This document shows positions 4,499 through 47,128 of a stretch of DNA of 64,000 nucleotides, in pieces. Position 1 is the first letter of the stretch; each line of letters starts with the position of its first letter. The DNA is from a virus: the IMG/VR virus record IMGVR_UViG_3300027782_000027, positions 62,001-126,000 of that record. One strand, given 5' to 3'. A program made the position numbers and the translations under genes. The notes beneath the pieces are model-generated. The model searched no databases, was not told the origin of the DNA, and saw only the letters and a program-made list of their open reading frames with translations.

Positions 4499-5218
4499 AT
4501 GCAAAATTACAAAATATTAGGTCCAAAAGAGACAGGAAAAGGTATTTTAATTGAGATGGACGCAGGTTATGTTTCTCCAACAGAAAAACATAATCAAACA
4601 TTCTTACAAGAAAGTAAGGATTTTAAAGATTATTCTAAACCATTTGAATTTTATGCCGTTCTACAAAAATATAATACACCGAATAGAAACGGTAGAATAT
4701 ATCCTGAAAGAATTTTAAAAAGAGAGTCCGAAAATTATATAAAGAATTATATCGGTAAAAAAACCTCTTTATCTGAACTTAACCACCCTGAATCTTCATT
4801 AATAGATTTAGATAGAGTATCACATATGATTACAGAGATGTGGTGGGATGGTAATGTTCTATTAGGTAAATTGTTACTTCTAACTTCACCAGGGTTCCAT
4901 GAAAGAGGTATCGTATCAACAAAGGGTGACCAAGCGGCAAACCTATTAAGACTAGGTGTGACGTTAGGTATATCATCAAGAGGGGTAGGTTCCTTAAAAA
5001 AAGTAGGTGAACAAAATGAAGTTCAGGATGATTTTGAATTAATTTGTTTTGACTTGGTGTCATCACCATCAACACCAGGAGCTTATTTATTTACTGAACC
5101 TGATGGAAGATTTGCGTTTGAGGAAAACCTAAAAGAAGAAAATGATATGAAAGCTGCAAGAACAGTTAACAAATCGCTTGATTTAATGGGAAGACTTACC
5201 GATTATTTAGGAAAATAA
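4499..5218 (+). CDS. 21: Prohead core protease, T4 gp21-like
   Basis: The product has 239 residues (T4 gp21 about 212). Conserved blocks include YNTPNRNGRIYPERIL, SELNHPESS with the likely catalytic His96, and GVTLGISSRGVGSL with the catalytic serine in GISSRG (residues 157-162). The enzyme matures the prohead by cutting scaffold, capsid and internal proteins after (L/I)xE. Its presumed substrates are encoded next to it (scaffold, capsid protein) and at several other loci in the window whose N-termini carry matching sites. The downstream small gene starts 6 bases after its stop. Confidence 0.93.
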   Translation: MQNYKILGPKETGKGILIEMDAGYVSPTEKHNQTFLQESKDFKDYSKPFEFYAVLQKYNTPNRNGRIYPERILKRESENYIKNYIGKKTSLSELNHPESSLIDLDRVSHMITEMWWDGNVLLGKLLLLTSPGFHERGIVSTKGDQAANLLRLGVTLGISSRGVGSLKKVGEQNEVQDDFELICFDLVSSPSTPGAYLFTEPDGRFAFEENLKEENDMKAARTVNKSLDLMGRLTDYLGK

Positions 5219-5556: not shown

Positions 5557-6951
5557 ATGGCAGAAAAAAACTTAGTTGAAGAGGCATTAATCCAAATACA
5601 AAATTTGGAAGAAGCTATCAATGAAAACGCAAAAGAAATACTTCATTCTACAATGAAAGAAGAAATTAGCGAATTAGTAAAAGAGTCTATGAAAAATGAG
5701 GCTGAAGAAGAAGATGAATTTGAAATCGAAGACGAGATTGAATCAGATGATGAATCAGAAGAAGAAGATGAGTCTGAAGAAGACGAATCGGAAGAAGAAG
5801 ACGAAGATTCTGAGGAAGGATTCGATATGATGGATTTATCTGACGAAGGTGACGAAGATGAAAATGAATTTGATGTTCAAGATTTATCTGACGAACCGAT
5901 GTCGACAGTTCTTAAAGCATTCAAACAAATGAAACCAACTGATTCTTTTGAAATCAAGAAAGAAGGTGATTTTATTCATTTAAAAGATGAAGAAGATGAA
6001 TACCTTATTCAAAACGGTTCAGAAGACGATGAGTTTGGTGAATTTGGTGAATCTCAAGAAGAAGAAACTGAAGAAATGGTTTATGAAATCGAAATGGATT
6101 CACTTGAAGAAGAAGAAACTGAAGAAATGGTTTACGAAATCGAAATGGATTCTAACGACTTTTCATTTGATGATGATGAAGAAGAAGAAGAATCTAAAGA
6201 AGAAGATTTCTATATGGAAGAAGAAATGAATCCTGTTATGGAAACATTTAAAGCAAAATTAGGTAACGGAGCCGCTAAAGTAGGTAATGCTAAAACAGCA
6301 TCTACTTTTAAGAAAACAAAAGGTGGTTTTAACGAAAAGAAAAAAGCCGTTAATCCAACTGCTCACACAGGAAAACCTAAATTTGAATTTAAAGAAGGTG
6401 ATGTGTTTGAAATGCCAAGTCAACGTGCTGAGAAATTCACTAAGGAAGAAGCTAAAGAAGCTGCACGTACTTATGGATTCGGTTCTAAAAAAGGACGTGG
6501 TTTGAGAAAAGCAATTACACCTAACAGAAATCTTACTTTTGAAAACCATGAAATCATGGAAGAAGTTGAAATGTTGAGAGCTAAAAATGAAGAGTATAGA
6601 AAAGCTTTAAATATGTTTAGAGATAAACTTAATGAAGTTGCGATATTCAATTCTAATCTTGCTTACGCTACAAGATTGTTCACAGAACATTCTACATCAA
6701 AACAAGAAAAAATTAACATTTTAAGAAGATTTGATTCAGCGGAATCCCTTAAAGAGTCTAAAGCCCTTTATAAAAATATCAAAGACGAATTATATATTGA
6801 CAACAATAAGAAATTCGTTAATGAGTCAATCGAAAGAGTTATTGAAAAAACTCCACAGTCAGGTTCAGCAGTTAATCTGATTGAATCTAAGACTTACGAG
6901 AATCCACAATTCTTGAGAATGAAAGACATTATGTCAAAAATAATAAAATAA
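5557..6951 (+). CDS. 22: Prohead scaffolding core protein, T4 gp22-like
   Basis: The product has 464 residues (T4 gp22 about 270). Residues ~45-110 and ~145-230 are extremely rich in Glu/Asp, residues ~235-320 are Lys-rich, and the C-terminal ~130 residues look helical and end in NPQFLRMKDIMSKIIK. The assignment rests on position directly between gp21- and gp23-like genes and on scaffold-like composition. Many LxE/IxE triplets fit destruction by the protease. It contains a 17-residue tandem duplication. The gene is expressed from its own late promoter and is followed 26 bases later by the capsid gene. Confidence 0.85.
   Translation: MAEKNLVEEALIQIQNLEEAINENAKEILHSTMKEEISELVKESMKNEAEEEDEFEIEDEIESDDESEEEDESEEDESEEEDEDSEEGFDMMDLSDEGDEDENEFDVQDLSDEPMSTVLKAFKQMKPTDSFEIKKEGDFIHLKDEEDEYLIQNGSEDDEFGEFGESQEEETEEMVYEIEMDSLEEEETEEMVYEIEMDSNDFSFDDDEEEEESKEEDFYMEEEMNPVMETFKAKLGNGAAKVGNAKTASTFKKTKGGFNEKKKAVNPTAHTGKPKFEFKEGDVFEMPSQRAEKFTKEEAKEAARTYGFGSKKGRGLRKAITPNRNLTFENHEIMEEVEMLRAKNEEYRKALNMFRDKLNEVAIFNSNLAYATRLFTEHSTSKQEKINILRRFDSAESLKESKALYKNIKDELYIDNNKKFVNESIERVIEKTPQSGSAVNLIESKTYENPQFLRMKDIMSKIIK
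6058..6153 (+). repeat. In-frame tandem duplication in the scaffold gene
   Basis: A 51-base unit encoding EEETEEMVYEIEMDSLE is followed by a second, almost identical copy of its first 45 bases. The copies differ by only a base or two (TTTATGAA versus TTTACGAA), so the duplication looks recent. Confidence 0.9.
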
Positions 6952-6977: not shown

Positions 6978-8867
6978 ATGGGAGCATTATTAGAAAGTGG
7001 ATTAGTTGGTAACATTGGTCTTAAGCACTTGAAAGTTATCAAAGAAGACACAGTAAACAAATGGGACAAATTAGGGTTCCTTGAAGGTCTTAAAGGCCAC
7101 CTAAAAGAAAATGTAGCACAATTGTATGAAAACCAAGCGTCACATTTGATTAACGAAGCATCTTCTACGGCAGATTCAGGTTCATTCGAGACTGTGGTAT
7201 TCCCTATCATCAGACGTGTGTTCTCTAAATTATTGTCTAACGAAATCGTTTCTGTACAAGCTATGAACTTACCAATCGGTAAATTGTTCTACTTCGTACC
7301 ACAAATCCAAGGTTATTCTGGTGGTTCAGCTATTAACGGATTAAACGTTACTTCTGGTGACCACTACCCGCCTGTAGGTTCTCCTGGAAACTATCCTGGA
7401 AGTCCTGACGCAGGTTATGGTTCAGGAACAGGAAGTGCTAACAACCCAACTTACGCGAAAAACCTTTATGATTTATTCTACGAAGGAACTGAGCCAGGTC
7501 TTAACCCAGCAGGTTTATTTGATTATTCTAAAGGACGTTTTGTAACACTAACAGGTTCATGTCCAACAGTTGCTTGGTCTGACGGAGCGTTAATTCCTTC
7601 AGGTTATACTGTACAAGGTGGTTCTAACACTGAATTTAGAAAAATTATTGTAGCACTTTCAGGTTTAACTTCTGCAGGTAATGGTAAGTTAATTGGACCT
7701 GACGGACAAGAGCAGGATACTGAATCTTTCTTATCTGGATTGGTTCTTTATACTAATAACGCAACTGTTGCGTCTAACTTAGGTACTAATACATATACAC
7801 CACTTTTATACCGTGTTGTAACTCAAAAGTATGGTCAATCAATATACGGTCCGAACTATACTAGTACTCAGGCAACTTTTGGTAGTACTTTCGCAAGTAC
7901 AACTCAAGGTAACGGTGGTTACTATGATAACGTATGTAATACACAAGGTTATATCTATTTAGAGATTGACACTCAAGTTCCGGCATGTATTGCTTGTGGA
8001 CAGTCAACTCCTGATGGATATTCTGGAGCAACATTAACTGCTACACAATGGAGTGGTTCTTCTGCTAATACTAACATCCAAGCAGCTTGGAGACGTTACG
8101 AAGAGTTAGAATTTGAAGATAAAATTGGTGAAGTTTCTTTTGACCTTGAGTCAGTAACTGTATCTGTTACAGAAAGAAAATTAAGAGCACAATGGTCTCC
8201 AGAAATGGCACAAGACGTTGCAGCGTTCCACAACATCGATGCTGAAGCTGAATTAACAGCTTTATTATCTGAACAAGTGGCGGCTGAAATTGACCGTGAA
8301 ATCTTACGTGACTTACGTAAAGGTGCAGCGTGGACATTACGTTGGGATTACAACGGATGGAAGCGTCTGAACAACCAATCAACTCCTTACACTCAAAAGG
8401 ACTGGAACCAAACGTTGATTACTGCAATCAACCAAATTTCAGCTCAAATCCACAAGTCTACTTTAAGAGGTGGAGCTAACTGGATTGTTGTATCTTCTGA
8501 AATCAGTGCAATCTTTGATGACTTGGAATACTTCCACGTATCAAATGCGGCCCCTGAGCAGGACCAATTCAACATGGGTATCGAGAGAGTTGGTACATTA
8601 AGTGGTCGTTACCAAGTATACCGTGACCCATACTTCCCAGCTAACACTGTGTTGATTGGTCATAAAGGTACTTCTTTATTGGATACTGGTTACATCTACG
8701 CTCCATACGTACCGTTACAATTAACTCCAACAATGTATAACCCATTCAACTTTACTCCTATCAAGGGTATCATGACAAGATACGCGAAGAAGATGGTGAA
8801 CAATCGCTTCTATGGTCGTATCATCGTTGATGGTGTTCGTACATTCGATTTGAATGAATTAAGATAA
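6978..8867 (+). CDS. 23: Major capsid protein, T4 gp23-like
   Basis: The product has 629 residues (T4 gp23 521). The HK97-fold core is recognisable: FETVVFPIIRRVFSKLL, RKLRAQWSPEMAQDVAAFHN, ELTALLSEQVAAEIDREILR, SGRYQVYRDPYFPANTVLIG and NPFNFTPIKGIMTRYAKK. The sequence SHLINE/ASST at residues 55-64 is a canonical prohead-protease site, so the mature protein probably starts at Ala61, close to T4 (65 residues removed). Residues ~105-345 are a Gly/Ser/Thr-rich insertion between the N-arm and the conserved core, longer than in T4. The codons look more GC-rich and regular than those of neighbours, as expected for a highly expressed gene. A terminator follows directly. Confidence 0.97.
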   Translation: MGALLESGLVGNIGLKHLKVIKEDTVNKWDKLGFLEGLKGHLKENVAQLYENQASHLINEASSTADSGSFETVVFPIIRRVFSKLLSNEIVSVQAMNLPIGKLFYFVPQIQGYSGGSAINGLNVTSGDHYPPVGSPGNYPGSPDAGYGSGTGSANNPTYAKNLYDLFYEGTEPGLNPAGLFDYSKGRFVTLTGSCPTVAWSDGALIPSGYTVQGGSNTEFRKIIVALSGLTSAGNGKLIGPDGQEQDTESFLSGLVLYTNNATVASNLGTNTYTPLLYRVVTQKYGQSIYGPNYTSTQATFGSTFASTTQGNGGYYDNVCNTQGYIYLEIDTQVPACIACGQSTPDGYSGATLTATQWSGSSANTNIQAAWRRYEELEFEDKIGEVSFDLESVTVSVTERKLRAQWSPEMAQDVAAFHNIDAEAELTALLSEQVAAEIDREILRDLRKGAAWTLRWDYNGWKRLNNQSTPYTQKDWNQTLITAINQISAQIHKSTLRGGANWIVVSSEISAIFDDLEYFHVSNAAPEQDQFNMGIERVGTLSGRYQVYRDPYFPANTVLIGHKGTSLLDTGYIYAPYVPLQLTPTMYNPFNFTPIKGIMTRYAKKMVNNRFYGRIIVDGVRTFDLNELR

Positions 8868-9211: not shown

Positions 9212-9949
9212 ATGAAAAGTAATATGATTTTAGAAATTCTTAAAAAACTAACTGAATATGAGAAATATTTAAATGAAGCATCAACTACATCTACTGTTGG
9301 TGGTACATATAAGCCTCCGATTAGACCAGGAATTAGAAAATGGTTTGATGAAAATTTAAAGCCATTTATTGAACCTGTATCTGACTATGTTGATGCTGAA
9401 ATAAATTACGATTCTTTAGATGGTCATGTTAAAAAATCTAAAAAAGAAATTTCTAAAAAAGAAAAAAATGCTAAACATATTAGAGATAAGGATTATAGAC
9501 AAGATGCTCCTGATGAAGGTGATGATGAATATGCTTACGCACCATTTAAAATGTATAAACCAGATTATCAAGTGGATAGTGTAAATGAATCAAAAAAAGA
9601 TACTAATGAAGATTTAGGTGTTTGGTTTGGTACAAAGAAAAAACCAAAGGGTAGTAAACAACCTAAAGGTCCATGGGTAAATATTTGTAGTAAAAAAGAT
9701 GGTAAACATCCACCATGTGGAAGACCTGAGGGTGATACAAAGGGTTATCCTAAATGTAGAGCGGTAGGGGTCGCAGCTAAAATGACCGATTCTCAAAAAC
9801 AATCTGCTTGTCAACAAAAAAGAAAGGCCGAAAAAAAAGATACTCAAACAGGTAAAGGTCAAAAACCTGTTATGACATCATACAAACCTAAAAAGAAAAA
9901 GACCAACGAATCGGTCTTAATATCTTTAATTAGAAAATCTTTAGGTTAA
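9212..9949 (+). CDS. Basic Cys-containing protein, DUF5872-like; candidate internal head protein
   Basis: The product has 245 residues. The start is taken at ATG 9212 rather than the in-frame TTG two codons upstream. Residues 1-22 (MKSNMILEILKKLTEYEKYL then NE) form an amphipathic segment ending in LNE followed by Ala, a prohead-protease-type site. Residues ~130-195 carry the motif GPWVNICSKKDGKHPPCGR and YPKCRAVGVAAKM, with four to five cysteines, which recalls the short DUF5872-type domain common in marine T4-like phages. The C-terminus is Lys-rich, as in DNA-binding internal proteins. Packaging in the head is an inference. The 3' end overlaps the convergent gene by 4 bases. Confidence 0.65.
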   Translation: MKSNMILEILKKLTEYEKYLNEASTTSTVGGTYKPPIRPGIRKWFDENLKPFIEPVSDYVDAEINYDSLDGHVKKSKKEISKKEKNAKHIRDKDYRQDAPDEGDDEYAYAPFKMYKPDYQVDSVNESKKDTNEDLGVWFGTKKKPKGSKQPKGPWVNICSKKDGKHPPCGRPEGDTKGYPKCRAVGVAAKMTDSQKQSACQQKRKAEKKDTQTGKGQKPVMTSYKPKKKKTNESVLISLIRKSLG

Positions 9950-10191
9950 TAAATACTTTTACTAACTCTAATACCTGGTCTAAGAGGTTCGTAAGCTCTT
10001 TCAGGTCTTGAGTATTGTCCTGTATTATATTCAGAATTTAATTCTCTCAATGCGTTTTTATATTCACCTGTTTCATCAGATAATATTCTATCAATAACAT
10101 CTTGAACTAAGCCTCTATCAAGTCTTCCGTATTCTGGTTCTTCTGACATTTCTTTTAATACTTTTTTAATTTGCGTATCTAATTTTGACAT
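9946..10191 (-). CDS. Small protein with capsid-targeting-like N-terminus
   Basis: The product has 81 residues. Its first 14, MSKLDTQIKKVLKE, match MKNLNNIIKKVLKE of the gene ending at 10665 in length and in the IKKVLKE core, although the rest of the two proteins is unrelated. LKE at 12-14 fits the (L/I)xE cleavage rule of the prohead protease. The remainder (LVQDVIDRILSDETGEYKNA, RPERAYEPLRPG) has no recognised domain. A TATTTAT motif lies 28 bases upstream, within the end of the preceding gene. Confidence 0.6.
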   Translation of the reverse strand: MSKLDTQIKKVLKEMSEEPEYGRLDRGLVQDVIDRILSDETGEYKNALRELNSEYNTGQYSRPERAYEPLRPGIRVSKSIY

Positions 10192-10201
10192 GATTCTAAT
10201 A

Positions 10202-10606
10202 TTAACAATTTATTTTATTATAAATATTGTCAAGAGAATGATTAATTTGACTTTCTAATTCTTTTTCAATTTCCATTGCTCTATATTCCATTTCTCTACG
10301 GAACGCACTAACCAATTTATCCCATTGAGTTTTATTTAATTTAATAAAATAACTGTATGTATGATTAGTTACAGTAACTTGTCCACCATCCATTGTAACA
10401 AAAATACCTAATTTATCATTACGGATATATTTCTTATCTGATATGGGTGCGATTATGAGTTCAGAATCTTCCGAATGAATGAGTTTACGACATATGGTGG
10501 AACATTTCCTCACGTTAGACATATAGATGTCAAATTCGGTATCCTTTCGGTCTAATCTACGTAAGTATAGACGATATTTAATCCACAGTTTTTTTATTAT
10601 AGTCAT
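10202..10606 (-). CDS. Uncharacterised basic protein
   Basis: The product has 134 residues. It has a very basic N-terminus (MTIIKKLWIKYRLYLRRLDRK), a middle region that may form a small beta fold (LGIFVTMDGGQVTVTNHTYSY) and a helical Glu-rich tail. No domain is recognised. It lies in the minus-strand run after the virion genes at 11700-17333, separated from the next upstream gene by 58 bases with no clear promoter motif. Confidence 0.55.
   Translation of the reverse strand: MTIIKKLWIKYRLYLRRLDRKDTEFDIYMSNVRKCSTICRKLIHSEDSELIIAPISDKKYIRNDKLGIFVTMDGGQVTVTNHTYSYFIKLNKTQWDKLVSAFRREMEYRAMEIEKELESQINHSLDNIYNKINC
10220..10226 (-). promoter_or_regulatory. Possible late promoter (TATTTAT) for the 9946-10191 gene
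   Basis: On the minus strand, AATATTTATAATAAAATAAAT lies 28 bases before the ATG. TATTTATAATAAAATAAA also occurs before the tail tube gene. Confidence 0.4.
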
Positions 10607-10664
10607 GTCATTTATGATTTGACTACAAATATACTACGATTTTTTAATAATCCAAAATAATTGA

Positions 10665-11183
10665 TTAACAATATGCTCCTGAACAATGTTTTTTTCCATC
10701 AAGACCTTTGATTTTACCTTTACATACTTGAACAGCGTGACCATTTGAATAAGCGGAAGGGTAAACGTCATATTTTGATTTTGCAGATGCGACACCACGA
10801 GCACATAATTTAGTACCAGCCTTTTTACGACCTTCAGTCATTTGATATAATGCCAATGCTGTGCCAGGGTCTCCATTTACATCATCTACCATAGCTAAAT
10901 CGTCGATAATATTGTCATCTTCCATTACCTCTTCAGAACTAAAATCATCACCTTCAATTTCGTTCATTATAAAATCAAAAACTTGGTCCATATTATTTTT
11001 AGATTCTGCAATGTGGTCTTGAGCCCAATCATGACCATTGTCTAAAATAGATTCTATCATTTTTTTATCCTTACCAAGGAGTATTTCACATTGGCGTTTC
11101 ATTTGTTCTAAATTACTGAAGAACATATATCTTTGAGTTTCCTCTTTAAGTACTTTTTTAATTATGTTATTTAAATTTTTCAT
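10665..11183 (-). CDS. Candidate internal head protein with C-terminal YPSAY motif
   Basis: The product has 172 residues from the ATG at 11183, one base past the upstream stop. The in-frame TTG three codons earlier would overlap the upstream gene and is less likely. Residues 1-14, MKNLNNIIKKVLKE, look like a capsid-targeting peptide with an LKE cleavage site. The middle is acidic. The C-terminus has KLCARGVASAKSKYDVYPSA and YSNGHAVQVCKGKIKG, a Cys-containing motif I recall from many marine T4-like phages without a known function. It resembles the Cys motif in the 9212-9949 protein in spirit (ARGVASAK versus AVGVAAKM). Confidence 0.62.
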   Translation of the reverse strand: MKNLNNIIKKVLKEETQRYMFFSNLEQMKRQCEILLGKDKKMIESILDNGHDWAQDHIAESKNNMDQVFDFIMNEIEGDDFSSEEVMEDDNIIDDLAMVDDVNGDPGTALALYQMTEGRKKAGTKLCARGVASAKSKYDVYPSAYSNGHAVQVCKGKIKGLDGKKHCSGAYC

Positions 11184-11184
11184 A

Positions 11185-11703
11185 TTACGCAATCATATCA
11201 TCTTCTTTTAGGTCATTACAGACTACATCTAAAAACACTTCAATATCGTGTTCAATACCTTCATAATCCTCAAATACATTATTTCCTTCAGTTGTATTTT
11301 CAAACATACAAGTTTGAAAATTACCTTCAGTATCACAGTAAATTTCACCATAGTAATCACTATCATCAACTGTTAGATATCCTGTATGTATTTTTTCATC
11401 TTCAGTATCTTCAGTTGACTCGTATCTAAATTTAAATGACGGCATACCTGGAAATTCAAAAGACCAAAAACCACCAGCTTTAGTCATAAAATCATCTTTA
11501 GATGATGGTTCATCTTCTATTGAAATACCTTTAGTGAATTTCCCAAGAATTTCTCTTTCTTTAGGAGTAATTGATTCCATACCTGACTGACTAATCTTAT
11601 CTAAGATTGCGTCAATTTTATCTTCACCTGGTGTTAACGCTTCAGATAATACAAATTTTAATAACTTAATATATTCGTTTTCTTTTAATACTACTTTTTT
11701 CAT
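11185..11703 (-). CDS. Acidic protein with DUF6576-like segment and capsid-targeting-like N-terminus
   Basis: The product has 172 residues, and its ATG overlaps the upstream stop (ATGA). The first 21 residues end in VLSE followed by Ala22, a prohead-protease-type LSE site. Residues ~30-58 (DAILDKISQSGMESITPKER) resemble the short DUF6576 helical motif found at the C-terminus of Bacteroidota rhomboid proteins. The rest is acidic, with a possible beta region (FWSFEFPGMPSFKFRYES). The function is unknown; packaging in the head is inferred from the N-terminus only. Confidence 0.6.
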   Translation of the reverse strand: MKKVVLKENEYIKLLKFVLSEALTPGEDKIDAILDKISQSGMESITPKEREILGKFTKGISIEDEPSSKDDFMTKAGGFWSFEFPGMPSFKFRYESTEDTEDEKIHTGYLTVDDSDYYGEIYCDTEGNFQTCMFENTTEGNNVFEDYEGIEHDIEVFLDVVCNDLKEDDMIA

Positions 11704-17360: not shown

Positions 17361-18098
17361 TTACTCTTCCTTAACATCTATTAACGAAGAGTAAATTTTC
17401 TTGAATTTTTTAATTGAAGCTCTAATCTCTTTAGTTGACATATTTGTCATTTCACGAATAGATAATAAAATTACATTTTTATTAAATTTATTATTATCTG
17501 TTGCCGGAAATATCGTTTCGTAATTGTCTAAAATATCGATAAGTGCAAAACCTAATTTTAATTCATTATCATTTAATTCATCTTCTTCTATTGTTGTTTT
17601 AATATAATCTTTTAATATCGGAATTACATTATATTCTTGAATAGGTTCAATTTCTAAATAATAAATCATTTCAGGTCTATTTTCTAAATCACTTGAAATA
17701 TCCTCATATGAAATTTTTCTATTTGTTTCTTTTTGGTCTTTTAATATTTGGCCCATAAGATAATTCTTACAAATAGTTCCAAAATATGAGTAAGCTTTCT
17801 TTTCTTTTGAAGGACTAAATTTTTCAATTTTTGTCATCAAAAAAGAATGTGTGTCGGTATGAATTTCAGTAAAATTCATATCTTTTCTATACAATTTATA
17901 TCTTCTTATTATCGAAGATATCATCTTATCTAAAGGGAATCTTAAAAATTCATTATAAATTTTATTTTTTTCCTCAGAAGTAGATGCGGTTAGAAATAAT
18001 CTAACAGCATTTTCCTCTCTTATATCAAAATAATTTTCTGTGGCCGGTTTTTTCTTCTTAGTTAAAGAATCTTGAACAGACGTTGCACTTAAAATCAT
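17361..18098 (-). CDS. 55: Late-transcription sigma factor, T4 gp55-like
   Basis: The product has 245 residues (T4 gp55 185). Residues ~48-128 match the sigma region-2 pattern: FLRFPLDKMISSIIRRYKLY, then HSFLMTKIEKFSPSKEKKAY and SYFGTICKNYLMGQILKDQK, comparable to the gp55 segment around [20 protein letters not shown]. The rest has a helix-turn-helix-like end (MTNMSTKEIRASIKKFKKIY) that could act as a small region 4. Such a factor directs host RNA polymerase to late promoters, here probably the TATTTAT boxes. Its start overlaps the upstream glycosyltransferase stop (TAATG), so it is expressed with the earlier block. Confidence 0.78.
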   Translation of the reverse strand: MILSATSVQDSLTKKKKPATENYFDIREENAVRLFLTASTSEEKNKIYNEFLRFPLDKMISSIIRRYKLYRKDMNFTEIHTDTHSFLMTKIEKFSPSKEKKAYSYFGTICKNYLMGQILKDQKETNRKISYEDISSDLENRPEMIYYLEIEPIQEYNVIPILKDYIKTTIEEDELNDNELKLGFALIDILDNYETIFPATDNNKFNKNVILLSIREMTNMSTKEIRASIKKFKKIYSSLIDVKEE

Positions 18099-18904
18099 TA
18101 AACATTTTCAGGTGTATATTTTATGTTTCTGTCTTGGCTAAAGAAATATTCTTTTTTTGCAGTATTAACCCAAAACTTAACTTCATTTTCTGTTAACACA
18201 TTTTCGCCATTTTTATAATCCCAAAAAATAGAACCTTCTCTTAAATTCATATGTTTATAACCAATTCTTGGTATTGTCATGAATTTAACTGAGTTATAAG
18301 TCATTCTTAATAAAAACTCGTAAGCAAATGTTAGTTTAAACCCTGGTTTAAATCCTCCAAAATCTTCAACAATTTGTTTTTTAAATACCATACCTGAAGT
18401 TTGGAAATTTTGATAACTTAATAATGTTTCATTTGTTAATATTCCCATTTCTTGTGAGAAATTAGCAGCAAATGTCGCTTCGTTTGTAAATCCAGCAAAT
18501 ACTGATTTATTATCAACATCAACAACGATTGGCATAAATACATCTACATCAGTATAAATTTCTGAATATTTTCTAACATTTTTAAACCAAATTTTAGAAA
18601 ACTCATCGTCAAATTCTAAAATACTATTCCATTCAGTTTTTGAGTTTTTAATACCTGTATTAACTTGTTCGCAAAAACTAAGCTCACCGTCAAATTTAAT
18701 CTTATTAACTTTTAAATCACCAAAATCAAAATTGTTTAAATAATTAATTAAACTTTCTTCTTCAGAGTGAACAATTATAAGTTCGGTGGGTAATATATCT
18801 TGTATAGTTAATGACTCGATACTTTTTTTAAAAAACTCGTCAAAATCTCTAACTACTGAGGTTTTTAATGGTAATATAACACTTAATTCAAATTCTTTTT
18901 TCAT
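18098..18904 (-). CDS. Glycosyltransferase, GT2-like (GT-A fold)
   Basis: The product has 268 residues. The ATG at 18904 follows the upstream stop by one base; a TTG four codons earlier is less likely. The N-terminus ELSVILPLKTSVVRDFDEFF is a GT-A start, and SILEFDDEFSKIWFKN carries the acidic metal/nucleotide site in the place of DxD. Later FQTSGMVFKKQIVEDFGGFK is the usual acceptor-side block of GT2 enzymes. The substrate cannot be read from sequence. It is the last sugar-block gene before the sigma gene. Confidence 0.75.
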   Translation of the reverse strand: MKKEFELSVILPLKTSVVRDFDEFFKKSIESLTIQDILPTELIIVHSEEESLINYLNNFDFGDLKVNKIKFDGELSFCEQVNTGIKNSKTEWNSILEFDDEFSKIWFKNVRKYSEIYTDVDVFMPIVVDVDNKSVFAGFTNEATFAANFSQEMGILTNETLLSYQNFQTSGMVFKKQIVEDFGGFKPGFKLTFAYEFLLRMTYNSVKFMTIPRIGYKHMNLREGSIFWDYKNGENVLTENEVKFWVNTAKKEYFFSQDRNIKYTPENV

Positions 18905-18905
18905 A

Positions 18906-19964
18906 TTATTGTTCAATTAATTGTAATTTATTTATTTCTTCTTGAAATCCTTGAGTTCGTTTACTGAAGTAATCTGAAAATAATTCAATAACGTTCTTTT
19001 CAAATTTTTGAAAATCTGAAAACTCAGATGAAGTATCTAATCCATTTTGATATAATTTTTCAGATATATTATCTTCTAACCAATTTTGGATAAATTCGGC
19101 AACGAAATCAACTAATTTAATTTCTTCTTGAATCCAAATACCATTTTCTTCATTTAACCATGAGGGAACCATCTTAGGTAATACACCTAAAACAGGAACA
19201 TTAGATTTCATAGATTCCAATGGGAAAGTCCCAAAAGAACTTGTTTTATCAATCCAAACTGATAACATACAGTCCTTTAAAGTATTAGCAAATTCTTCTT
19301 CTGAAATTCCTCTCATGTCTCTAAATGTTACCCATCTAAATTGTGGATATTTTTGATAGAAAGTTTTAATCAGATTAATTGCCTCACGTTGTTCTCTTGA
19401 AGAGACTGCGATGATTGGTTTTGCCGGAAATTTAGATGTTGTAAATACAGGTGAAACAACAGGTTCTAATATATCAATTGAGAAGTTTCTCATAATATCC
19501 GAGATATATTTTTTCTGATTTTCAGAAGTTGTTATACATTTTGTAAATCCAAATTGACTCCATACTTGTCCTGGTTGTAAAGTTTCGAAAATATGGTCGT
19601 AAGCTTGTGATAAAACAACTTTAGTACAAGGTAAATTAGTTAATTGTGACATAATATACCCAAAAATTTCAGGAATAATAATGAAATCTTCAGGTGAAAT
19701 CCCTAAATTTTGACCTTCAACAGACTGATGAGGTAAATTAGAATATTTATCACCTAACCATCCTGAAACACCAAAATAATCTGGTTTTTCATGTAACATA
19801 ATCGGATTGTATCCGTTTTCTTTTAACGTTAATCCCATCTGGTAGATATATCTTACCGACGCATTAGCATTTCCCTTTGTGTCCTGAACAAAAAAATAAA
19901 TCTTTGATTTTTTATTTTTAAGGTTTTCAATAGAACCTTCAATTTTTAAAACTCTTTCTTCCAT
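18906..19964 (-). CDS. Glycosyltransferase, GT-B fold
   Basis: The product has 352 residues. It shows a GT-B-like layout: residues ~18-60 KSKIYFFVQDTKGNANASVR, a middle region with FIIIPEIFGYIMSQL, and a C-terminal Rossmann half with SVWIDKTSSFGTFPLESMKS then NVPVLGVLPKMVPSWL, where the FPLES glutamate fits the nucleotide-sugar site of GT4-type enzymes. Donor and acceptor are unknown. It is separated from the next upstream gene by 3 bases. Confidence 0.75.
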   Translation of the reverse strand: MEERVLKIEGSIENLKNKKSKIYFFVQDTKGNANASVRYIYQMGLTLKENGYNPIMLHEKPDYFGVSGWLGDKYSNLPHQSVEGQNLGISPEDFIIIPEIFGYIMSQLTNLPCTKVVLSQAYDHIFETLQPGQVWSQFGFTKCITTSENQKKYISDIMRNFSIDILEPVVSPVFTTSKFPAKPIIAVSSREQREAINLIKTFYQKYPQFRWVTFRDMRGISEEEFANTLKDCMLSVWIDKTSSFGTFPLESMKSNVPVLGVLPKMVPSWLNEENGIWIQEEIKLVDFVAEFIQNWLEDNISEKLYQNGLDTSSEFSDFQKFEKNVIELFSDYFSKRTQGFQEEINKLQLIEQ

Positions 19965-19967
19965 ATT

Positions 19968-20228
19968 TTAATATTTGTTTATTATTTTATTATTTAATAA
20001 AGTGTTGAATGCCAATTTAAATGGTATTGATAAATTTGATTTATGACCAAGTTTTTCATCAGTTTCTTCACTTTCTGATAGAACAACATCTACCATAATT
20101 TTTATTAGTTCATATTTTACAACACTAATATGTTGTTCACTATCTCCGCTAATACTCGCGTCATATGTAACACTGTCACTAATTAAATCTAAATCAATGT
20201 AATAGTGTTCATTAAGAATTGTCAGCAT
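19968..20228 (-). CDS. Small uncharacterised acidic protein
   Basis: The product has 86 residues with no recognised domain. A short beta-like N-terminus (ILNEHYYIDLDLISDSVTYD) is followed by a helical region. Its ATG lies inside the end of the HAD-like gene (17-base overlap), which indicates translational coupling within the long minus-strand operon. Confidence 0.55.
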   Translation of the reverse strand: MLTILNEHYYIDLDLISDSVTYDASISGDSEQHISVVKYELIKIMVDVVLSESEETDEKLGHKSNLSIPFKLAFNTLLNNKIINKY

Positions 20229-20817
20229 CTAATTTATTTTTTAAAATTAACTTTAGTTCTTCGATAGAATTAATTGATTCATTACAATTAATTTTTTCGT
20301 TATAAATTGTATTGAATTTAATACAATTATTATAATTAATAAGAATATTAGGGTTAGAAGTAACTATTAAATCAAAATCTCCTAAAACTTTGGACTTATT
20401 TGAATCATTATAGAATAAAATTGATTCTATTAAACATCCGAACTTTGATAGGAAAAATAAAGTTGCGGGTTTTGTTTTACCTATTTCATCTGAAATTATT
20501 ACGATATCATTTTTATCTCTAAAATCTAAATAAAAGTCATTTAAATAGTTAAAACTTAACAATTCAGTTGAGGGTGAATGACCAAAAATCTCCATGGGAA
20601 ATTCTTCGTATAAAAAACTAAAAAACTCTTCTTTTGATTGAAATGAAAAATGATTCATTAAATCTAAAGAATTAATTGGTTCATTAATTACATATTCAAA
20701 CGGGTTTTCAGATTCAGAATTTTCTAAATTATTATCTATTAAAAATTTTTCGTAAGTGGTTTTAAACTTACCTATAGTATCTCTTAAAACTCCATTAATA
20801 TCAATTCCTATCTTCAT
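20212..20817 (-). CDS. HAD-superfamily-like protein with altered motif I
   Basis: The product has 201 residues. The N-terminus MKIGIDINGVLRDTIGKF is HAD motif I, but the second aspartate of DxD is Asn7 (DIN). A motif II-like IVIISDEIGK and a following Lys (KTKPATLFFLSKFG) are present, and FDLIVTSNP may be motif IV. 5'-nucleotidase-like enzymes of this size occur in phages. Loss of the general-acid Asp could mean weak or absent phosphatase activity. It overlaps PhoH by 17 bases. Confidence 0.6.
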   Translation of the reverse strand: MKIGIDINGVLRDTIGKFKTTYEKFLIDNNLENSESENPFEYVINEPINSLDLMNHFSFQSKEEFFSFLYEEFPMEIFGHSPSTELLSFNYLNDFYLDFRDKNDIVIISDEIGKTKPATLFFLSKFGCLIESILFYNDSNKSKVLGDFDLIVTSNPNILINYNNCIKFNTIYNEKINCNESINSIEELKLILKNKLDADNS

Positions 20818-21541
20818 ATCTTTTTAACATTTCAGTAATTAATGGATTTCTAACAACATCACCATCACCAAACTCATGAACACCAATTTCGGAAATATTT
20901 TTAAATTTTTCAATAGCATCCCATAACCCTGAATGTTTTTTATCTTTATATCTATCAGTTTGTTCTAAGTCACCTGATATGAAAAATTTACTATCAGTAC
21001 CAATACGAGTTAATAATAATTTCATTTGTTTAGGAGTTGCGTTTTGAGCTTCTTCAAATATTAAAATAGAATTATCAATATTCATTCCTCTCATATACGC
21101 TAAAGCAAATACTTCAATAACCTCCATTTGTTTTAATTTCTCTCTTGCTTCTTTACCTATGATTTTATTCAATAAGTAATATGATGGGAAAATATACGGG
21201 TCTAATTTTTCTTCAACATTACCGGGTAATGAACCAAGTTTTTCTTCAGCCTCAACTGCTGGTCTAACTATAATAATCTTTTCGTAAGGTGATGTGTGGT
21301 CAGCTAATAAATCAACAGCCGCTTTCATTGCAATAAAACTTTTACCAACACCTGCCGGACCTGAACAAATTGTAATTTGATTTTTAACTAATTTATCGTA
21401 ATACTCTCTTTGACTTTGAGTTAAGAATTTATCTTTACTCTTTTTAATCATAACACTAATTTGGTCTTTTTTAGACATTCTTGGTTTAGCTTCAGTGGAA
21501 ATATACTGAGTGTCTTTGATAATTGTTTTTTTTCTTGTCAT
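20801..21541 (-). CDS. phoH: PhoH-like ATPase
   Basis: The product has 246 residues. Walker A is GPAGVGKS (61-68), followed by IIIVRPAVEAEEKLGSLPGN, the Walker B-like SILIFEEAQNATPKQMK (~158-174) and GDLEQTDR. This is the compact PhoH ATPase core (often called PhoH2/PhoL type without accessory domains) that is very common in T4-like phages. Its role in infection is unknown; RNA or phosphate metabolism has been proposed. It lies inside the sugar/nucleotide block rather than beside replication genes. Confidence 0.92.
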   Translation of the reverse strand: MTRKKTIIKDTQYISTEAKPRMSKKDQISVMIKKSKDKFLTQSQREYYDKLVKNQITICSGPAGVGKSFIAMKAAVDLLADHTSPYEKIIIVRPAVEAEEKLGSLPGNVEEKLDPYIFPSYYLLNKIIGKEAREKLKQMEVIEVFALAYMRGMNIDNSILIFEEAQNATPKQMKLLLTRIGTDSKFFISGDLEQTDRYKDKKHSGLWDAIEKFKNISEIGVHEFGDGDVVRNPLITEMLKRYEDRN

Positions 21542-21544
21542 TAT

Positions 21545-22369
21545 TTAATTTGTGTGTAACTTTTTTGAGAATAATTGCATTTCAATTATCTGAAATTCCA
21601 ATTCAGGTATATCATATTTTATATCAAAAATTGTTGATAATGTTCTATCAACAATATATTCTGAATCAACTGGATTAATTTCAATATTTAAATTGTATGA
21701 ATTTGACAACATTTTAACTAAATCATATTTTGAGACTTGAGTTGGTGAGATGAAATGTTTAGTTCCCTTCCAAAAATCTTTGTTATTTATAATTTTTTCT
21801 ACTAATTTAGCCCATTCTAAACAAGTTATACCGTTCCAAAAATGATTCAGAAACCCATTAACTTTATTATTTTTTTGACTTTTAACCCATTCAACTAAAG
21901 ACCTATGTTGATTAATTTCTTCCCCAATTATTGAAGTTCGAATTATTGTGCAATTTTTTGGTTCCCCAATAGCCTTAGACATACCATATACATCATCAAC
22001 ATCATATTTATCTTTTTCATTATATTTCCCTTTTTTACCTGAATATACACAATCTGTTGTTGGGTGAATCATGTCCCATTTATTTTTTTCGCAAATATTT
22101 GATAACATTCTTGGAAATACTGAGTTAACTAAAATAGCATTTAAATCCCCTAATTGGTCAACTCTTGGTTTAATAGTACCAATACAATTTATGATAACGT
22201 CTCCCTGATTTACACCACAATTAATTAAAATTTCTTCTAATGTTTTTTCTGTTTGTTGAGAGGCGTCAAGAACATCTCTATTAATTTCGTTAACATTAAA
22301 TTTTTCGGATAAATAAGTGTAAACATATTTACCTAACATACCTTTTGAACCTAAAATATAAATTTTCAT
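21545..22369 (-). CDS. NAD(P)-dependent sugar reductase, RmlD-like
   Basis: The product has 274 residues, the usual size for RmlD-type 4-keto-6-deoxysugar reductases (SDR extended family). Residues 1-12 contain the dinucleotide-binding GSKGMLG, VINCIGTIKPRVDQ follows the second strand, and the catalytic YxxxK is YGMSK. The position near GDP-mannose dehydratase suggests that it reduces a 4-keto-6-deoxyhexose, possibly GDP-linked, but the substrate is inferred. The start codon is preceded by an unusual A-tract repeat. Confidence 0.82.
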   Translation of the reverse strand: MKIYILGSKGMLGKYVYTYLSEKFNVNEINRDVLDASQQTEKTLEEILINCGVNQGDVIINCIGTIKPRVDQLGDLNAILVNSVFPRMLSNICEKNKWDMIHPTTDCVYSGKKGKYNEKDKYDVDDVYGMSKAIGEPKNCTIIRTSIIGEEINQHRSLVEWVKSQKNNKVNGFLNHFWNGITCLEWAKLVEKIINNKDFWKGTKHFISPTQVSKYDLVKMLSNSYNLNIEINPVDSEYIVDRTLSTIFDIKYDIPELEFQIIEMQLFSKKLHTN

Positions 22370-22403
22370 AATTTTTTTTATTTTTTTTATTTTTTTTATT
22401 TTT
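22370..22403. repeat. A/T microsatellite before the RmlD-like start codon
   Basis: Four tandem copies of ATTTTTTT(T) on the plus strand, that is an (AAAAAAAT)n leader read on the minus strand, fill the whole gap between two sugar genes up to the ATG at 22369. Confidence 0.85.
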
Positions 22404-22823
22404 TTATCTAAAATCTTCTTCCCATATATTCCAATTATCGTGCGGTAATCTTATATCGTCACCTAAACTTTCTTCTAATGAAGTAGTTGAAAAGAAAATA
22501 ACTGAAGTGTTATCTTCTAAATTTTTAAAACCATTATAATGGTTTGGTGGAATAAATAATACTTTTGGTTGTTTTGAACTTAAAATATATTTTGTAATTT
22601 CTTCAGTTTCCATGTCAACAATCCCAATAAGGGCGGTTCCACTCGAAACATAAACATATTTCCCTTCTTTTTTGTGACCATGCCACGCTCTTATAAAACC
22701 TTGCCTATGATTTTCAACTTGATAAAATCTTTTTATATTTTCAAAATTGAAGTCATTAACAAATCTAACCGAACCCCTGTCATCAACAGAGATACCACCA
22801 TTCATTAATTTTTTTGTGTCCAT
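22404..22823 (-). CDS. Cupin sugar 3,5-(3,4-)epimerase/isomerase, RmlC/FdtA-like
   Basis: The product has 139 residues. It has the cupin pattern of the WxcM/FdtA and RmlC-related enzymes: RFYQVENHRQGFIRAWHGHK, YVYVSSGTALIGIVD and VLFIPPNHYNGFKNLED. These act on 4-keto-6-deoxy nucleotide sugars. Whether it epimerises or isomerises is not decidable here. The gene overlaps the following epimerase gene by 19 bases. Confidence 0.75.
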   Translation of the reverse strand: MDTKKLMNGGISVDDRGSVRFVNDFNFENIKRFYQVENHRQGFIRAWHGHKKEGKYVYVSSGTALIGIVDMETEEITKYILSSKQPKVLFIPPNHYNGFKNLEDNTSVIFFSTTSLEESLGDDIRLPHDNWNIWEEDFR

Positions 22824-23779: not shown

Positions 23780-23807
23780 TATTTTATAAATTTATATTTT
23801 TTTACTT

Positions 23808-24632: not shown

Positions 24633-24639
24633 ATATATT

Positions 24640-25563: not shown

Positions 25564-25568
25564 AATAT

Positions 25569-25597
25569 ATTTTATTTTTTATTTTTTATTTTTTATA
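25569..25597. repeat. A/T microsatellite before a glycosyltransferase start
   Basis: Tandem TATTTTTT units on the plus strand ((AAAAAAT)n on the minus strand) span the stop of the GDP-mannose dehydratase gene and the leader of the gene starting at 25563. Confidence 0.8.
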
Positions 25598-26557: not shown

Positions 26558-26566
26558 ATTTTATTT

Positions 26567-27190: not shown

Positions 27191-27704
27191 ATCCTAATTT
27201 TTTTGCATTGTAAAGTATTCTTGTACTATCTATTTTTTTAACTAAAATTGCTGGATTTCCTTTATATACCCCCCATTCTTCAGTATCACCCATTAATAAA
27301 CTACCTGCAGATAATAGAACACCCCGTCTTAATCTTGAGCCGGGTAATACAATAGAATTTGTTCCGATATTAGAAAATTCTTCCATAAAAACAGGTTTAA
27401 TTATTTGAGTACCTTTTAATTCTTCAGGTATCATTGCTCCAAATAATCCACTATCATCAAATCTATCTGAACCACATACAATTCTAGCTCCGGCCATTAT
27501 GTTATTAAACCCTTTAGCCGTAAAATCTGAGTTTTTACCACCTATAATTGTCACATAAGGACTAATATGTGTATAATCACTAATATATAATTTTGTGGTA
27601 CAATAAAATCCTTTATCTATTGCAACATGATTACCTATAACACAATTATTTTTTTCTTTTATTATTATATCTAAATCTAAAACAACATCATTACCTATTT
27701 TCAT
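27180..27704 (-). CDS. Hexapeptide-repeat acetyltransferase
   Basis: The product has 174 residues with a left-handed beta-helix pattern: VVLDLDIIIKEKNNCVIGNH, TKLYISDYTHISPYVTIIGG and GTNSIVLPGSRLRRGVLLSA. This fits sugar O- or N-acetyltransferases of the WbbJ/NeuD type. Next to an aminotransferase, an N-acetyltransferase acting on an amino-deoxysugar is plausible. The ATG at 27704 overlaps the upstream TGA by one base; the TTG at 27707 is less likely. Confidence 0.82.
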   Translation of the reverse strand: MKIGNDVVLDLDIIIKEKNNCVIGNHVAIDKGFYCTTKLYISDYTHISPYVTIIGGKNSDFTAKGFNNIMAGARIVCGSDRFDDSGLFGAMIPEELKGTQIIKPVFMEEFSNIGTNSIVLPGSRLRRGVLLSAGSLLMGDTEEWGVYKGNPAILVKKIDSTRILYNAKKLGYDY

Positions 27705-28114: not shown

Positions 28115-28137
28115 ATTATTTTTTTAATTTTAACATT

Positions 28138-28866: not shown

Positions 28867-28870
28867 GTAT

Positions 28871-35704: not shown

Positions 35705-36286
35705 TTATTGGAGTTTTTTAACTTTAGATATTTTACCTTCAAATATATGTTTACCAACTTTGATTGTCATAATTTCATTAGATTTTTGAGTTGATTCAAC
35801 CATTAATCCATTTTCAGTTAATACCTCCTCAACAGTTTCTCTAACAATTTTTCTTATGTCATTAGCACTTAATCCAATACCACTATTTGAAGGTTGATGT
35901 TGAGGTTGTGGTTTGTTTTCTACAACAGTTTCTTTACGGGTGCCCATTAATCTTGACGCCTTTTCAATAATATCATCTGATATTGTTGCTTGATATTGTT
36001 GAGCTTGTTGAATTGGGTGTTCCATCATTAACCTTTTAATTGCGTCAGGTAATTTAGAATTTTTTATTCTATCTTCAGTTATTACTGCCGTAGATGCTTT
36101 TGGTGTTTGAGGAGATGAAGACAAATACTCTTCAGGTATGTTATAAGTTGACGGGATTGGAGTCTCATCATATTCTCTAACTAATTGTTGTTGATTTGAT
36201 TTTTTAGGTGTTACACCTCTATCCATATCATTATGTCTATCCATTATCTGTTTAGACACCATTAATTTCTGCATTAAATCATTCAT
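35705..36286 (-). CDS. Uncharacterised protein, last gene of the WYL operon
   Basis: The product has 193 residues. It has a disordered Gln/Pro/Ser-rich middle (KPQPQHQPSNSGIG), a conserved-looking LPDAIKRLMMEHPIQQAQQY, a predicted helix NDIRKIVRETVEEVLTENGL and a short beta end (EIMTIKVGKHIFEGKISKVK). I recall similar proteins in marine T4-like phages without function. It is probably a minor virion or assembly protein, because the operon is driven by a late motif at 38257. Confidence 0.6.
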   Translation of the reverse strand: MNDLMQKLMVSKQIMDRHNDMDRGVTPKKSNQQQLVREYDETPIPSTYNIPEEYLSSSPQTPKASTAVITEDRIKNSKLPDAIKRLMMEHPIQQAQQYQATISDDIIEKASRLMGTRKETVVENKPQPQHQPSNSGIGLSANDIRKIVRETVEEVLTENGLMVESTQKSNEIMTIKVGKHIFEGKISKVKKLQ

Positions 36287-36671
36287 TTTCTAATTCAAAT
36301 TTTGTACAAACTTTTAATCCTACCATTCCTTTATCATCAGGATTATAATTTGGTCTGATTACGTCAAATTTATCTCTAGGGTCTACTGAAAAGTTACCTA
36401 TTCTATCAATCCTAAATAATCTCCACCCCGGTAATGGTTGGTCACCAATTTGTGCGGTGTGAGACGCTCCTTCTCTTTCCCATGCTCTTATTACTTTATT
36501 TCCTCTTTTTGAGGTTCCGTAACAAAAAGGTTCAATTACACGAAGTCCTTTACCCCCATTATCTTTACCATTGTAGTAAATTGTAACCAAATTTCTATTT
36601 TTAATAGCATTGGTTATTTCATCGCTACTAGCTTCAAAAATAAGTTGTTTTATTACGTTGTAAAGCTTCAT
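36279..36671 (-). CDS. WYL-domain protein with capsid-targeting-like N-terminus
   Basis: The product has 130 residues. Residues ~16-110 match a WYL domain (Sm-like beta barrel): DEITNAIKNRNLVTIYYNGK, GLRVIEPFCYGTSKRGNKVI, RAWEREGASH and PGWRLFRIDRIGNFSV. WYL domains bind ligands or nucleic acid and often regulate transcription or defence systems. There is no HTH domain. The first 13 residues MKLYNVIKQLIFE are followed by Ala14, so IFE is a good prohead-protease site and the domain may be delivered with the DNA (inference). It overlaps both neighbours. Confidence 0.75.
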   Translation of the reverse strand: MKLYNVIKQLIFEASSDEITNAIKNRNLVTIYYNGKDNGGKGLRVIEPFCYGTSKRGNKVIRAWEREGASHTAQIGDQPLPGWRLFRIDRIGNFSVDPRDKFDVIRPNYNPDDKGMVGLKVCTKFELENE

Positions 36672-45622: not shown

Positions 45623-47128
45623 TCAATTCACAGTATAAATTAAATCTTGTGTTGGGATTTTAAACATACTTGAACTAAAAGCGACAGTTTTGTTTTTAAA
45701 AATATAAACTTCTTTATTAATATTTGAGAAAATTAATAAGTCGGTATTAAACTTTTTGACAAAACCTTTAATTTTAATATTATAGAAACCGTCAATTACT
45801 TCCATACTTAAAATTGGTTTAACTTGAGCGTTTTGTATTTTGTTATCAAAATTCACTGTTAAATCAGTTCCCGCAAAATCTTCTTTTGAACCTAAACTAC
45901 CAACTACAACTGCAGTTCCTTCACCAAATTCTTGATTGATTTTTTTTGCGACATACTCCTCAAGTTGACCACCTTTGTCATGTGTTCTTTTTAAAAGTTT
46001 CATAATCTTATCAAGAGTTTTAGACCCTTTAAAAATTCTTTCACCAAAAAACTCCATATAAGAACAAAATTTATTTATTTCTTCTACTTGTTGTAAAGGT
46101 GTTACCCCAATAAAATTTAATGTGGGTTTATTTAGTTTCGTAAGGACTGCGTTTAAATCATCAACTAAAATCTTAAACCCAATATAATTTGTATTTAATT
46201 TATTAATTACTGAACGACCTGGTTGTTCTAAGTCGTAAATACCTGAAGATGAACCTTCGGAGTGTTGATTGTTTTCATGCCACTTATCAGACAAAACCGT
46301 TTTCAACGTATTATCAATACATCGTCTGTAAGTCCAAAGAACATTTTTGTTGTTACTAAAAATATCTGAGTAATCCGACACGTTTTCGTATAACAGTTTT
46401 TTTGGTGAAGTTGATTCGTTCAATTTTTTTTCAGTTTTTGATTTGTATAACTCATTAACAAATTCCCAGTTGATTACTTCCCAAAAATTTTCAATATATT
46501 CGTCTCTTTTGTTTTGGTATTTTAAATAATATGCGTGTTCCCATAAATCCAAACCTAACAACGGAAAACCACCTTGATTAATTATATTCATAAGTGGGTT
46601 GTCTTGATTTGAGGTGGACATTACTTTTAATCTACCTGTATCGGTTAGAACTAACCAACACCATCCTGAACCAAATCGTTTTTTTGATATTTCTTCAAAT
46701 TTAGTTTTGAAATTACGATACGTCCCAAATTGTTTAACAATTTTTTCAAACACTTCACCACTTGGTTTTTGCGGTGTGGGTGATAACATCTTCCAAAACA
46801 ATGCGTGGTTAAATGCTCCACCTGCGTTATTTCTTATTGTTGTATTATACTTTGATATCTGTTTAACAATATTCTCCAATTCAACATCACCATAATCTTT
46901 TTTACGAAGAGCTGAATTTAATTTTTTAACATACCCCTTGTAATGTTTTTGATAATGAAATTTCATTGTCTCAGGGTCAATAAATCTTCTTAACGATGCG
47001 TATCCATACGGTAGTTTATCAATACCAATGGTTTTCATTTCATTAATAAAAAATTTGGTTTCAGGTTGAGTTTCCTCACCTAACAAACGACTAACTAATG
47101 ACTCTGATACTATATTTAACGATTTCAT
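45623..47128 (-). CDS. Mn/Fe superoxide dismutase fused to a PD-(D/E)xK-like domain
   Basis: The product has 501 residues. Residues ~35-230 are a complete Fe/Mn SOD. The metal ligands are His58 (FHYQKH), His108 (FNHALFW), Asp194 and His198 (LDLWEHAYY); Tyr66 is retained; and NNAGGAF plus Gln175 in STSNQDNPLM point to the Mn-type or cambialistic subclass. Residues ~230-380 are helical and unrecognised. Residues ~385-501 look like a restriction-endonuclease fold: GGQLEEYVAKKI, then GTDLTVNF (Asp422) and AQVK (Gln435-Lys437). The first 18 residues end in LLGE, an (L/I)xE site, so packaging in the head is possible. Its start lies 5 bases after a late motif. Confidence 0.82.
   Translation of the reverse strand: MKSLNIVSESLVSRLLGEETQPETKFFINEMKTIGIDKLPYGYASLRRFIDPETMKFHYQKHYKGYVKKLNSALRKKDYGDVELENIVKQISKYNTTIRNNAGGAFNHALFWKMLSPTPQKPSGEVFEKIVKQFGTYRNFKTKFEEISKKRFGSGWCWLVLTDTGRLKVMSTSNQDNPLMNIINQGGFPLLGLDLWEHAYYLKYQNKRDEYIENFWEVINWEFVNELYKSKTEKKLNESTSPKKLLYENVSDYSDIFSNNKNVLWTYRRCIDNTLKTVLSDKWHENNQHSEGSSSGIYDLEQPGRSVINKLNTNYIGFKILVDDLNAVLTKLNKPTLNFIGVTPLQQVEEINKFCSYMEFFGERIFKGSKTLDKIMKLLKRTHDKGGQLEEYVAKKINQEFGEGTAVVVGSLGSKEDFAGTDLTVNFDNKIQNAQVKPILSMEVIDGFYNIKIKGFVKKFNTDLLIFSNINKEVYIFKNKTVAFSSSMFKIPTQDLIYTVN

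Follow-up and report, generated by a model that had tools for sequence, protein, structure and literature searches.

The 64,000-nucleotide stretch considered here (the window; positions 62,001 to 126,000 of IMG/VR record IMGVR_UViG_3300027782_000027) comes from a 240,759-bp virus record, the other 177 kb of which was also read, and carries a phage head module together with genes whose products open with short N-terminal segments ending in an [LIV]xE triplet, referred to below as tags. The virus is a large aquatic phage, a distant relative of T4, and the tags recur on dozens of proteins with no other kinship in hundreds of viral contigs akin to it. The tags very probably form a modular T4-type system of capsid targeting and maturation cleavage, greatly expanded.

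Head module and candidate cargo genes

The head module is, judged by its family matches, of the T4 type (Table 1). Its Peptidase S77 protein, predicted to be the enzyme that cleaves the tags, has a self-type site of its own (TFLQE/S, residue 38), which is conserved in an alignment of 40 sequences and was also flagged by the blind scan described below. The protein encoded between protease and gp23 had no family match in Pfam and PHROG searches; from its position and acidity it is the probable scaffold or core protein, and it is a candidate receptor of the tags. The propeptide of the major capsid protein ends in LINE in 30 of 30 distinct homologues, with Ala (28) or Ser (2) as the next residue, and this site is of the same kind as those of the tags, as a preliminary description of this DNA had proposed. 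Judged by the capsid protein, Flavobacterium phages are the closest cultured relatives, which points to a host among the Bacteroidota.

Table 1. Features of the head module and candidate cargo, in window coordinates
Feature	Coordinates	Strand	Basis
Prohead protease, Peptidase S77 (T4 gp21-like)	4499..5218	+	Pfam PF03420 1.9e-26; PHROG head maturation protease 1.1e-43
Acidic protein, probable scaffold/core	5557..6951	+	Located between protease and gp23; acidity
Major capsid protein, gp23-like	6978..8867	+	PF07068 2.8e-72; propeptide ends LINE/A, residue 60
Tagged candidate cargo, Cys-containing C-terminal part	9212..9949	+	Body net charge +18
Tag MKSNMILEILKKLTEYEKYLNE ending YLNE/A	9212..9277	+	Homologue comparison
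Tagged candidate cargo, 81 amino acids, tag MSKLDTQIKKVLKE/M	9946..10191	-	Homologues
Tag of 9946-10191, short IKKxLxE family	10150..10191	-	Sequence
Tagged candidate cargo, body RYMFFSNLEQM.. and Cys-rich C-terminal domain	10665..11183	-	phrog_27331
Tag MKNLNNIIKKVLKE	11142..11183	-	Glu14 = P1
Tagged candidate cargo with DUF6576 motif (DKIDAILDKI..)	11185..11703	-	PF20216 5e-8
Tag MKKVVLKENEYIKLLKFVLSE/A	11641..11703	-	Homologue alignment
WYL-like tagged protein	36279..36671	-	PF13280 3.2e-4, just under cut-off
Tag MKLYNVIKQLIFE/A of WYL-like protein	36633..36671	-	Homologue alignment
Fe/Mn superoxide dismutase with C-terminal PD-(D/E)XK-like domain	45623..47128	-	PF02777 2.8e-41
Superoxide dismutase propeptide, residues 1-30, ending FFINE/M (residue 30)	47039..47128	-	Homologue alignment

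Six N-termini had been singled out in the preliminary description, and all are present at the gene starts assigned to them (genes are named here by their first coordinate). Two, MSKLDTQIKKVLKE of gene 9946 and MKNLNNIIKKVLKE of gene 10665, were said to share IKKVLKE ahead of different bodies, and the motif does occupy residues 8-14 in both, with unrelated bodies behind it. Among homologues the tag end is kept while the remainder varies. For example, homologues of gene 9212 carry different prefixes ending ILNE/V, ILLE/A, or VLRE/A, and short ones open straight at the tag end (e.g., MEERLNNILSE/DLAVWFG); homologues of gene 9946 end in ..VLKE, ..VLRE, or ..HLRE (five usable sequences, too few for the gene to enter the blind scan); and homologues of 11185 have fuller LTESQL/LTESEL tags ending xNE. 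In 10665, Glu14 (P1) is the sole invariant column ahead of the body across 29 aligned sequences, the rest of the segment being replaced; homologues without the segment, which were to count against the earlier proposal, were sought, and none refuting it was found. Similarly, the tag of the WYL-like protein keeps P3 Ile and P1 Glu in homologues down to 45% identity, with F, L, V, or T at P2. The description of the cargo as basic and Cys-containing holds for the body of 9212 (net charge +18) and fails for 10665 (-9) and 11185 (-26), and only 9212 and 10665 have clear PHROG matches among the window candidates, both to families of unknown function.

In the superoxide dismutase (SOD) fusion, all 34 aligned sequences have Glu30 (FFINE/M). 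When SODs of solved structure in the PDB are matched by profile, their first residues fall at query residue ~31-33, and a cut after Glu30 would therefore free an SOD with a normal start. Residues 250-501, for which Pfam gave no identification, match PD(D/E)XK endonuclease proteins in Foldseek (probability 0.99, E ~0.04). A homologue of this C-terminal domain stands alone in L065, where its start reads MKITISEGQYNILSE.

Tag A and the conservation of its predicted cut site

The strongest evidence comes from ten genes in the 2.5-37 kb part of the genome, beyond the window, which open with a near-identical segment of 22 residues, MKK(I/V)VRLTESDLxxIVKRVIxE (tag A), on unrelated bodies. In nine aligned starts M1, K3, R6, L7, E9, L12, K17, and E22 are invariant and P2 is free. 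Two further genes have the start MRNIExYxxRFxNLMESTIGxVKPLI(S/N)E in common. When the tag-A profile was run against all six-frame open reading frames, the sub-threshold matches included 11185 (second best), 10665 (third), and 9946 (much lower), which makes IKKVLKE the end portion of a broader set of tags; the proteins that have it carry shorter relatives of tag A. This genome has ~25 candidate tagged proteins. Two other genes were considered and left out: an FKBP gene (genome 26656), the conserved LAE of which sits inside the FKBP fold, was dropped, and gene 44469-45599 (MNTIIAE/P) was set aside as doubtful. At window 49477-49635 (+) the start MKIIISKKQLKMIVK/S has Lys at a conserved position where homologues have Glu, and its cleavage site may possibly have been lost.

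In IMG/VR at least 464 tag-A loci were found, and the 200 unique proteins among the relatives, with the ten tag-A genes of this genome, carry the motif far beyond the six proteins from which the search set out. These 200 proteins have P1 Glu in 98% and Ile, Leu, or Val at P3 in 97%, with P2 free, and Val is accepted beside the T4 rule of L/I. Information content is 4.0 bits at P1 and falls to 0.4 bits two residues further. As a guard against circularity the profile was rebuilt from tag positions 1-17 only, and of 187 unique matches, 180 then had [LIVM]xE precisely at residues 20-22. The bodies fall into 139 single-linkage clusters, and when 148 tagged representatives were aligned with MAFFT, clear consensus was confined to the tag.

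Distribution ties tag A to one group of phages. No tag was found in 556 genes of random viral contigs, and no convincing tag-A match in 28 random records, although 11 of these have an S77 protease; tag A is therefore characteristic of a single group within the T4-type phages. Records picked by capsid protein alone had tag-A matches in 14 of 15 cases. Of the 22 tagged records that reach 78 kb or more, 20 have S77; since random long contigs often come from T4-type phages as well (11/28), this association is no more than a modest test. Across 84,980 cellular genomes only three tag loci were found; no cellular chromosome clearly carried the tag, and the forms from metagenome-assembled genomes (MAG contigs L402, L403, and L404) have a four-residue insert, LTE(S/N)DLHRIVKESVK(K/R)xxxE. 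A tblastn search with the 25-residue tag gave no match in 50,697 phage records, and no cultured tag-A carrier was found by it. By capsid protein the closest relative in culture is Flavobacterium phage immuto (NC_055915; L092-L095), which grows on Flavobacterium sp. LMO8. It has S77 and lacks tag A, and it has its own start, F(D/N)LxxFL(V/T)E/NxLT (e.g., FDLKKFLVE/N), on four unrelated genes (1803, 103806, 117631, and 118632). As a positive control, the same screen on two long T4 stretches recovered the targeting peptide of IPII and IPIII. RLTESDL is unmentioned in the open-access literature, in which no description of a comparable tag set in Bacteroidota phages was found.

Single [LI]xE-type matches are common in a proteome rich in Lys, Glu, and Ile (10.9% of its internal windows), and chance triplets near N-termini would be the simplest account of the set. 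This is the least probable of the explanations weighed here, since the set exceeds chance both within the genome and across homologues. The pattern [ILVFM][LIV]xE occurs in residues 5-32 of 69 of the 236 genes of this genome vs. 36.1 +/- 5.5 in shuffled sequences (z 5.9), and the same test gave z 4.1 for immuto and z 0.7 for random viral contigs (745 genes). When 68 gene families were scanned blind for columns where [LIV]xE is conserved and its middle residue is free, 15 such columns lay in residues 5-30 vs. 9 beyond (odds ratio ~8.7, Fisher p 4e-7), and the scan recovered 9212, 10665, 11185, and WYL unprompted, as well as residue 30 (FINE/M) for the SOD. Conservation of this order across homologues excludes chance matches.

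Tagged genes also share an upstream signal. The element TATTTAT-N4-AAA lies ~20-24 nt ahead of most of the tag-A starts that have it, and it occurs upstream of many genes, among them window 4499, 5557, 9212, and 50954 and those of genome 14242-35422. TATTTAT precedes 14 of 15 tagged genes vs. 61 of 221 others in this genome (75 of 236 gene upstreams in all; background 2.5%, control contigs 2.7%), and these others include the protease, scaffold, SOD, and tail genes. The element is a candidate late promoter of this phage. Such proximity to tagged starts would also suit the idea that the conserved segment is a translated DNA or RNA element (a promoter, leader, or recombination site), which is nonetheless a very improbable one: TATTTAT stands ahead of untagged late genes too, homologous bodies retain the Glu alone while the rest of the segment changes, and codons differ at conserved residues. 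Nucleotide-level conservation was rejected as the cause, with P1 Glu encoded by both GAA and GAG and several Leu and Arg codons in use. Among the genome's own tags the same codon is used at identical residues in 64% of comparisons vs. 50% expected, which indicates shared descent of the tag-A copies, but selection on the peptide.

Other tag families and their exchange between bodies

An all-against-all search of 2,732 genes of relatives for similar N-termini on non-homologous bodies gave one component of 532 genes, which divides into several unrelated tag families. Beside family A (LTESDL) these are B (IExYKxRFxNLMESTIGDVKPLIxE), C (EEEKNRILxLHExxTKxxYLTE), the short D (MNLxExIKkILxE), ITESQ (160 genes, 73 body clusters), E (SYSKIRHIQExNxLLENRxLxE), F (MKYLFxYkxGxVISE), and an additional family, LLLMKYDxxxTLxEN..INE. 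Tag length ranges from 13 to 30 residues. Most of the at least seven unrelated families end in [LIV]xE, and Gln follows at P1' in 47% of A, 53% of C, 63% of B, and 100% of E and F, against a background of 3.4%; family D prefers Glu or Ala there. The convergence of unrelated prefixes on P3, P1, and P1' argues for a shared protease site.

The families are also exchanged. Across all of them, 247 tagged genes fall into 155 body clusters, and in seven of these clusters more than one tag family occurs on the same body. Homologues of 10665 with the same YMFFSNLEQM body start with MKNLNNIIKKVLKE, MDKLIKKILKE, MRNIDNIIRKVIKE, MKKIKLTESELTNIVKKVLEE, MKKVVKLTESDLSRIVKRVLNE, or MRITESQLNNLVKKIVTE, and 18 of them divide by tag family into nine D, seven A, and two ITESQ. 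One protein (L136:13082-13537) has an E-type and a B-type tag in series (..RIISE/Q.. then YKRRFYGLMESSIGNVKPLLSE/D). Different tag families on orthologous bodies contradict the proposal that gene duplication left the shared N-termini behind in one paralogous family whose bodies diverged past recognition; the codon agreement within the genome (0.64 vs. 0.50), a sign of shared descent among tag-A copies, speaks for it. It can be given very little probability, as the unrelated tags converge on one ending and as thioredoxin, an ECF sigma factor, an M23 peptidase, and peptidoglycan-binding and MORN proteins are found among the bodies.

For most tagged proteins no family match was obtained. The cargo that could be identified comprises peptidoglycan-binding domains (5/148), an M23 peptidase, thioredoxin, an ECF sigma factor, MORN repeats, and WYL, types that would plausibly be suited to delivery before or together with DNA. 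A thioredoxin with tag A (L124:8676-9059) and an ECF-type sigma factor with an ITESQ tag (L127:8466-9044) are candidates for injected redox and transcription-takeover proteins.

Among the neighbors of the window candidates, genes 8916 and 10202 are untagged and have variable starts without an [LIV]xE-type ending across relatives. Upstream of the WYL gene, window 17361-35616 (minus strand) holds a long series of sugar-nucleotide and glycosyltransferase-like genes.

The tags are strongly amphipathic (moment 0.67 vs. 0.32 in shuffles), and the AlphaFold model of 10665, for which no clear structural match was found, has a separate low-confidence helix at residues 2-13, a break at 14-18, and a confident body from 19. 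An amphipathic helix ahead of the body could also be an uncleaved docking helix to a phage or host hub (transcription complex, membrane, or replication site), with [LIV]xE as the helix end, and the many ITESQ-tagged proteins without a site would fit such a role. We consider this unlikely, if less so than the other alternatives: the mere end of a helix would explain neither the fixed P3 and P1 around a free P2, seen in seven unrelated tag families, nor the preference for Gln behind the Glu, and a like site occurs in the capsid protein and ahead of the SOD core, where SODs normally begin.

Proposed capsid targeting and its known counterparts

The interpretation favored here, capsid targeting with maturation cleavage, had been put forward in the preliminary description, and it is strengthened by a site conserved at the predicted cut, an interchangeable prefix, and a gp21-type protease and a gp23 with a like site in the same phage; in addition, the tag goes with T4-type phages and not with viruses at large, and late-promoter-like signals are common to tagged and head genes. 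Late in infection, many different cargo proteins would be made, each fronted by a short amphipathic helix that would dock it into the scaffold core while the prohead grows. The gp21-like protease would then cut after [L/I/V]-x-E, removing the tag in the same step in which the capsid protein matures (LINE/A), and the mature cargo would remain in the head beside the DNA, with ejection into the next host as a probable outcome. The tags would act as modules, drawn from several unrelated helix families, exchangeable on one body and possibly placed two in series. Whether the system is fully general, with packaging, trimming, and injection open to the product of any gene that gains one of several unrelated N-terminal helices with an [LIV]xE(Q) end, seems to us evenly balanced. 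On that view each phage would bring its host an arsenal of tens of proteins (thioredoxin, the SOD-nuclease fusion, peptidoglycan-binding and M23 proteins, the ECF sigma factor, and many unknowns), and the several kinds of label might each have a core protein of their own to dock to.

Several observations weigh against capsid targeting or limit the data on which it is built. About 30% of the ITESQ family is without an [LIV]xE site, and these starts may be uncleaved or serve another role. Most tag families have Gln at P1', whereas the capsid protein has Ala or Ser. The SOD site originally proposed, LLGE/E at residue 18, was rejected, as homologues do not conserve it and keep FINE/M (residue 30) instead. 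Two tagged records above 78 kb are without S77; they are also without portal and gp23, and the head module is thus probably missing from the fragment. The relatives are IMG/VR contigs, partly redundant and de-duplicated by sequence alone, and gene starts were taken from a simple codon-usage caller. Docking to the core, cleavage of the tags, the presence of the tagged proteins in the virion, and their ejection are themselves inferred.

If capsid targeting is the correct interpretation, the injected proteins of abundant uncultured large aquatic phages would become readable from sequence by label and cut site, and most of them would be proteins of unknown function. The few internal proteins of T4 would then be one case of a far larger modular delivery system. 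Such a system would also supply new tags with which T4-type heads could be loaded with foreign proteins, together with candidates for host takeover and counter-defense in ranked order.

The gp21 protease of T4 cleaves after L/I-x-E; the first ten residues of IPIII are enough to have a protein packaged, and the residues that direct targeting can be told apart from those required for processing (PMC9026906). The capsid-targeting sequences of IPI, IPII, IPIII, and Alt resemble the tags in being short N-terminal propeptides on unrelated bodies with an L/I-x-E end, in a phage that has both a gp21-type protease and a gp23-type capsid. They differ in number and form: T4 has a few such proteins and essentially one tag (MKTYQEFIAE), whereas here there are ~25 candidates and at least seven families; the tags are 13-30 residues long, are exchanged from one orthologue to another, and may stand in tandem, and the cargo is not uniformly small and basic. 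No recurrent tag family here resembles MKTYQEFIAE, and only MKLYNVIKQLIFE of the WYL-like protein begins similarly; the kind, a T4-type capsid-targeting propeptide, is defined by function and not by that sequence. With Asp at P1, T4 cargo is still targeted but no longer processed, and the two steps are separated in this way. The T4 vertex protein gp24 (MAKINELLRE/S) matches the D-type MSKLDTQIKKVLKE in length, hydrophobic spacing, and ending, but is a shell protein and not internal cargo. In giant phages of the phiKZ/SPN3US type, a gp21-related protease cleaves several proteins of the head, in each case after x-x-E, and SPN3US has an identical 15-residue start on two paralogues; its motif is A-x-E, several of its propeptides exceed 100 residues, and interchangeable short tags are not described there (PMC5694885). 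In T-even internal proteins everything differs except the targeting sequence (PMC3012670), and the present phages are alike in placing hyper-variable cargo behind an address peptide; the peptide is constant in the T-even phages, whereas here it varies and only the protease site is constant. What appears new relative to the T4 system, to judge from these genomes, is its scale, the several unrelated tag families, and the swapping of tags between orthologues.

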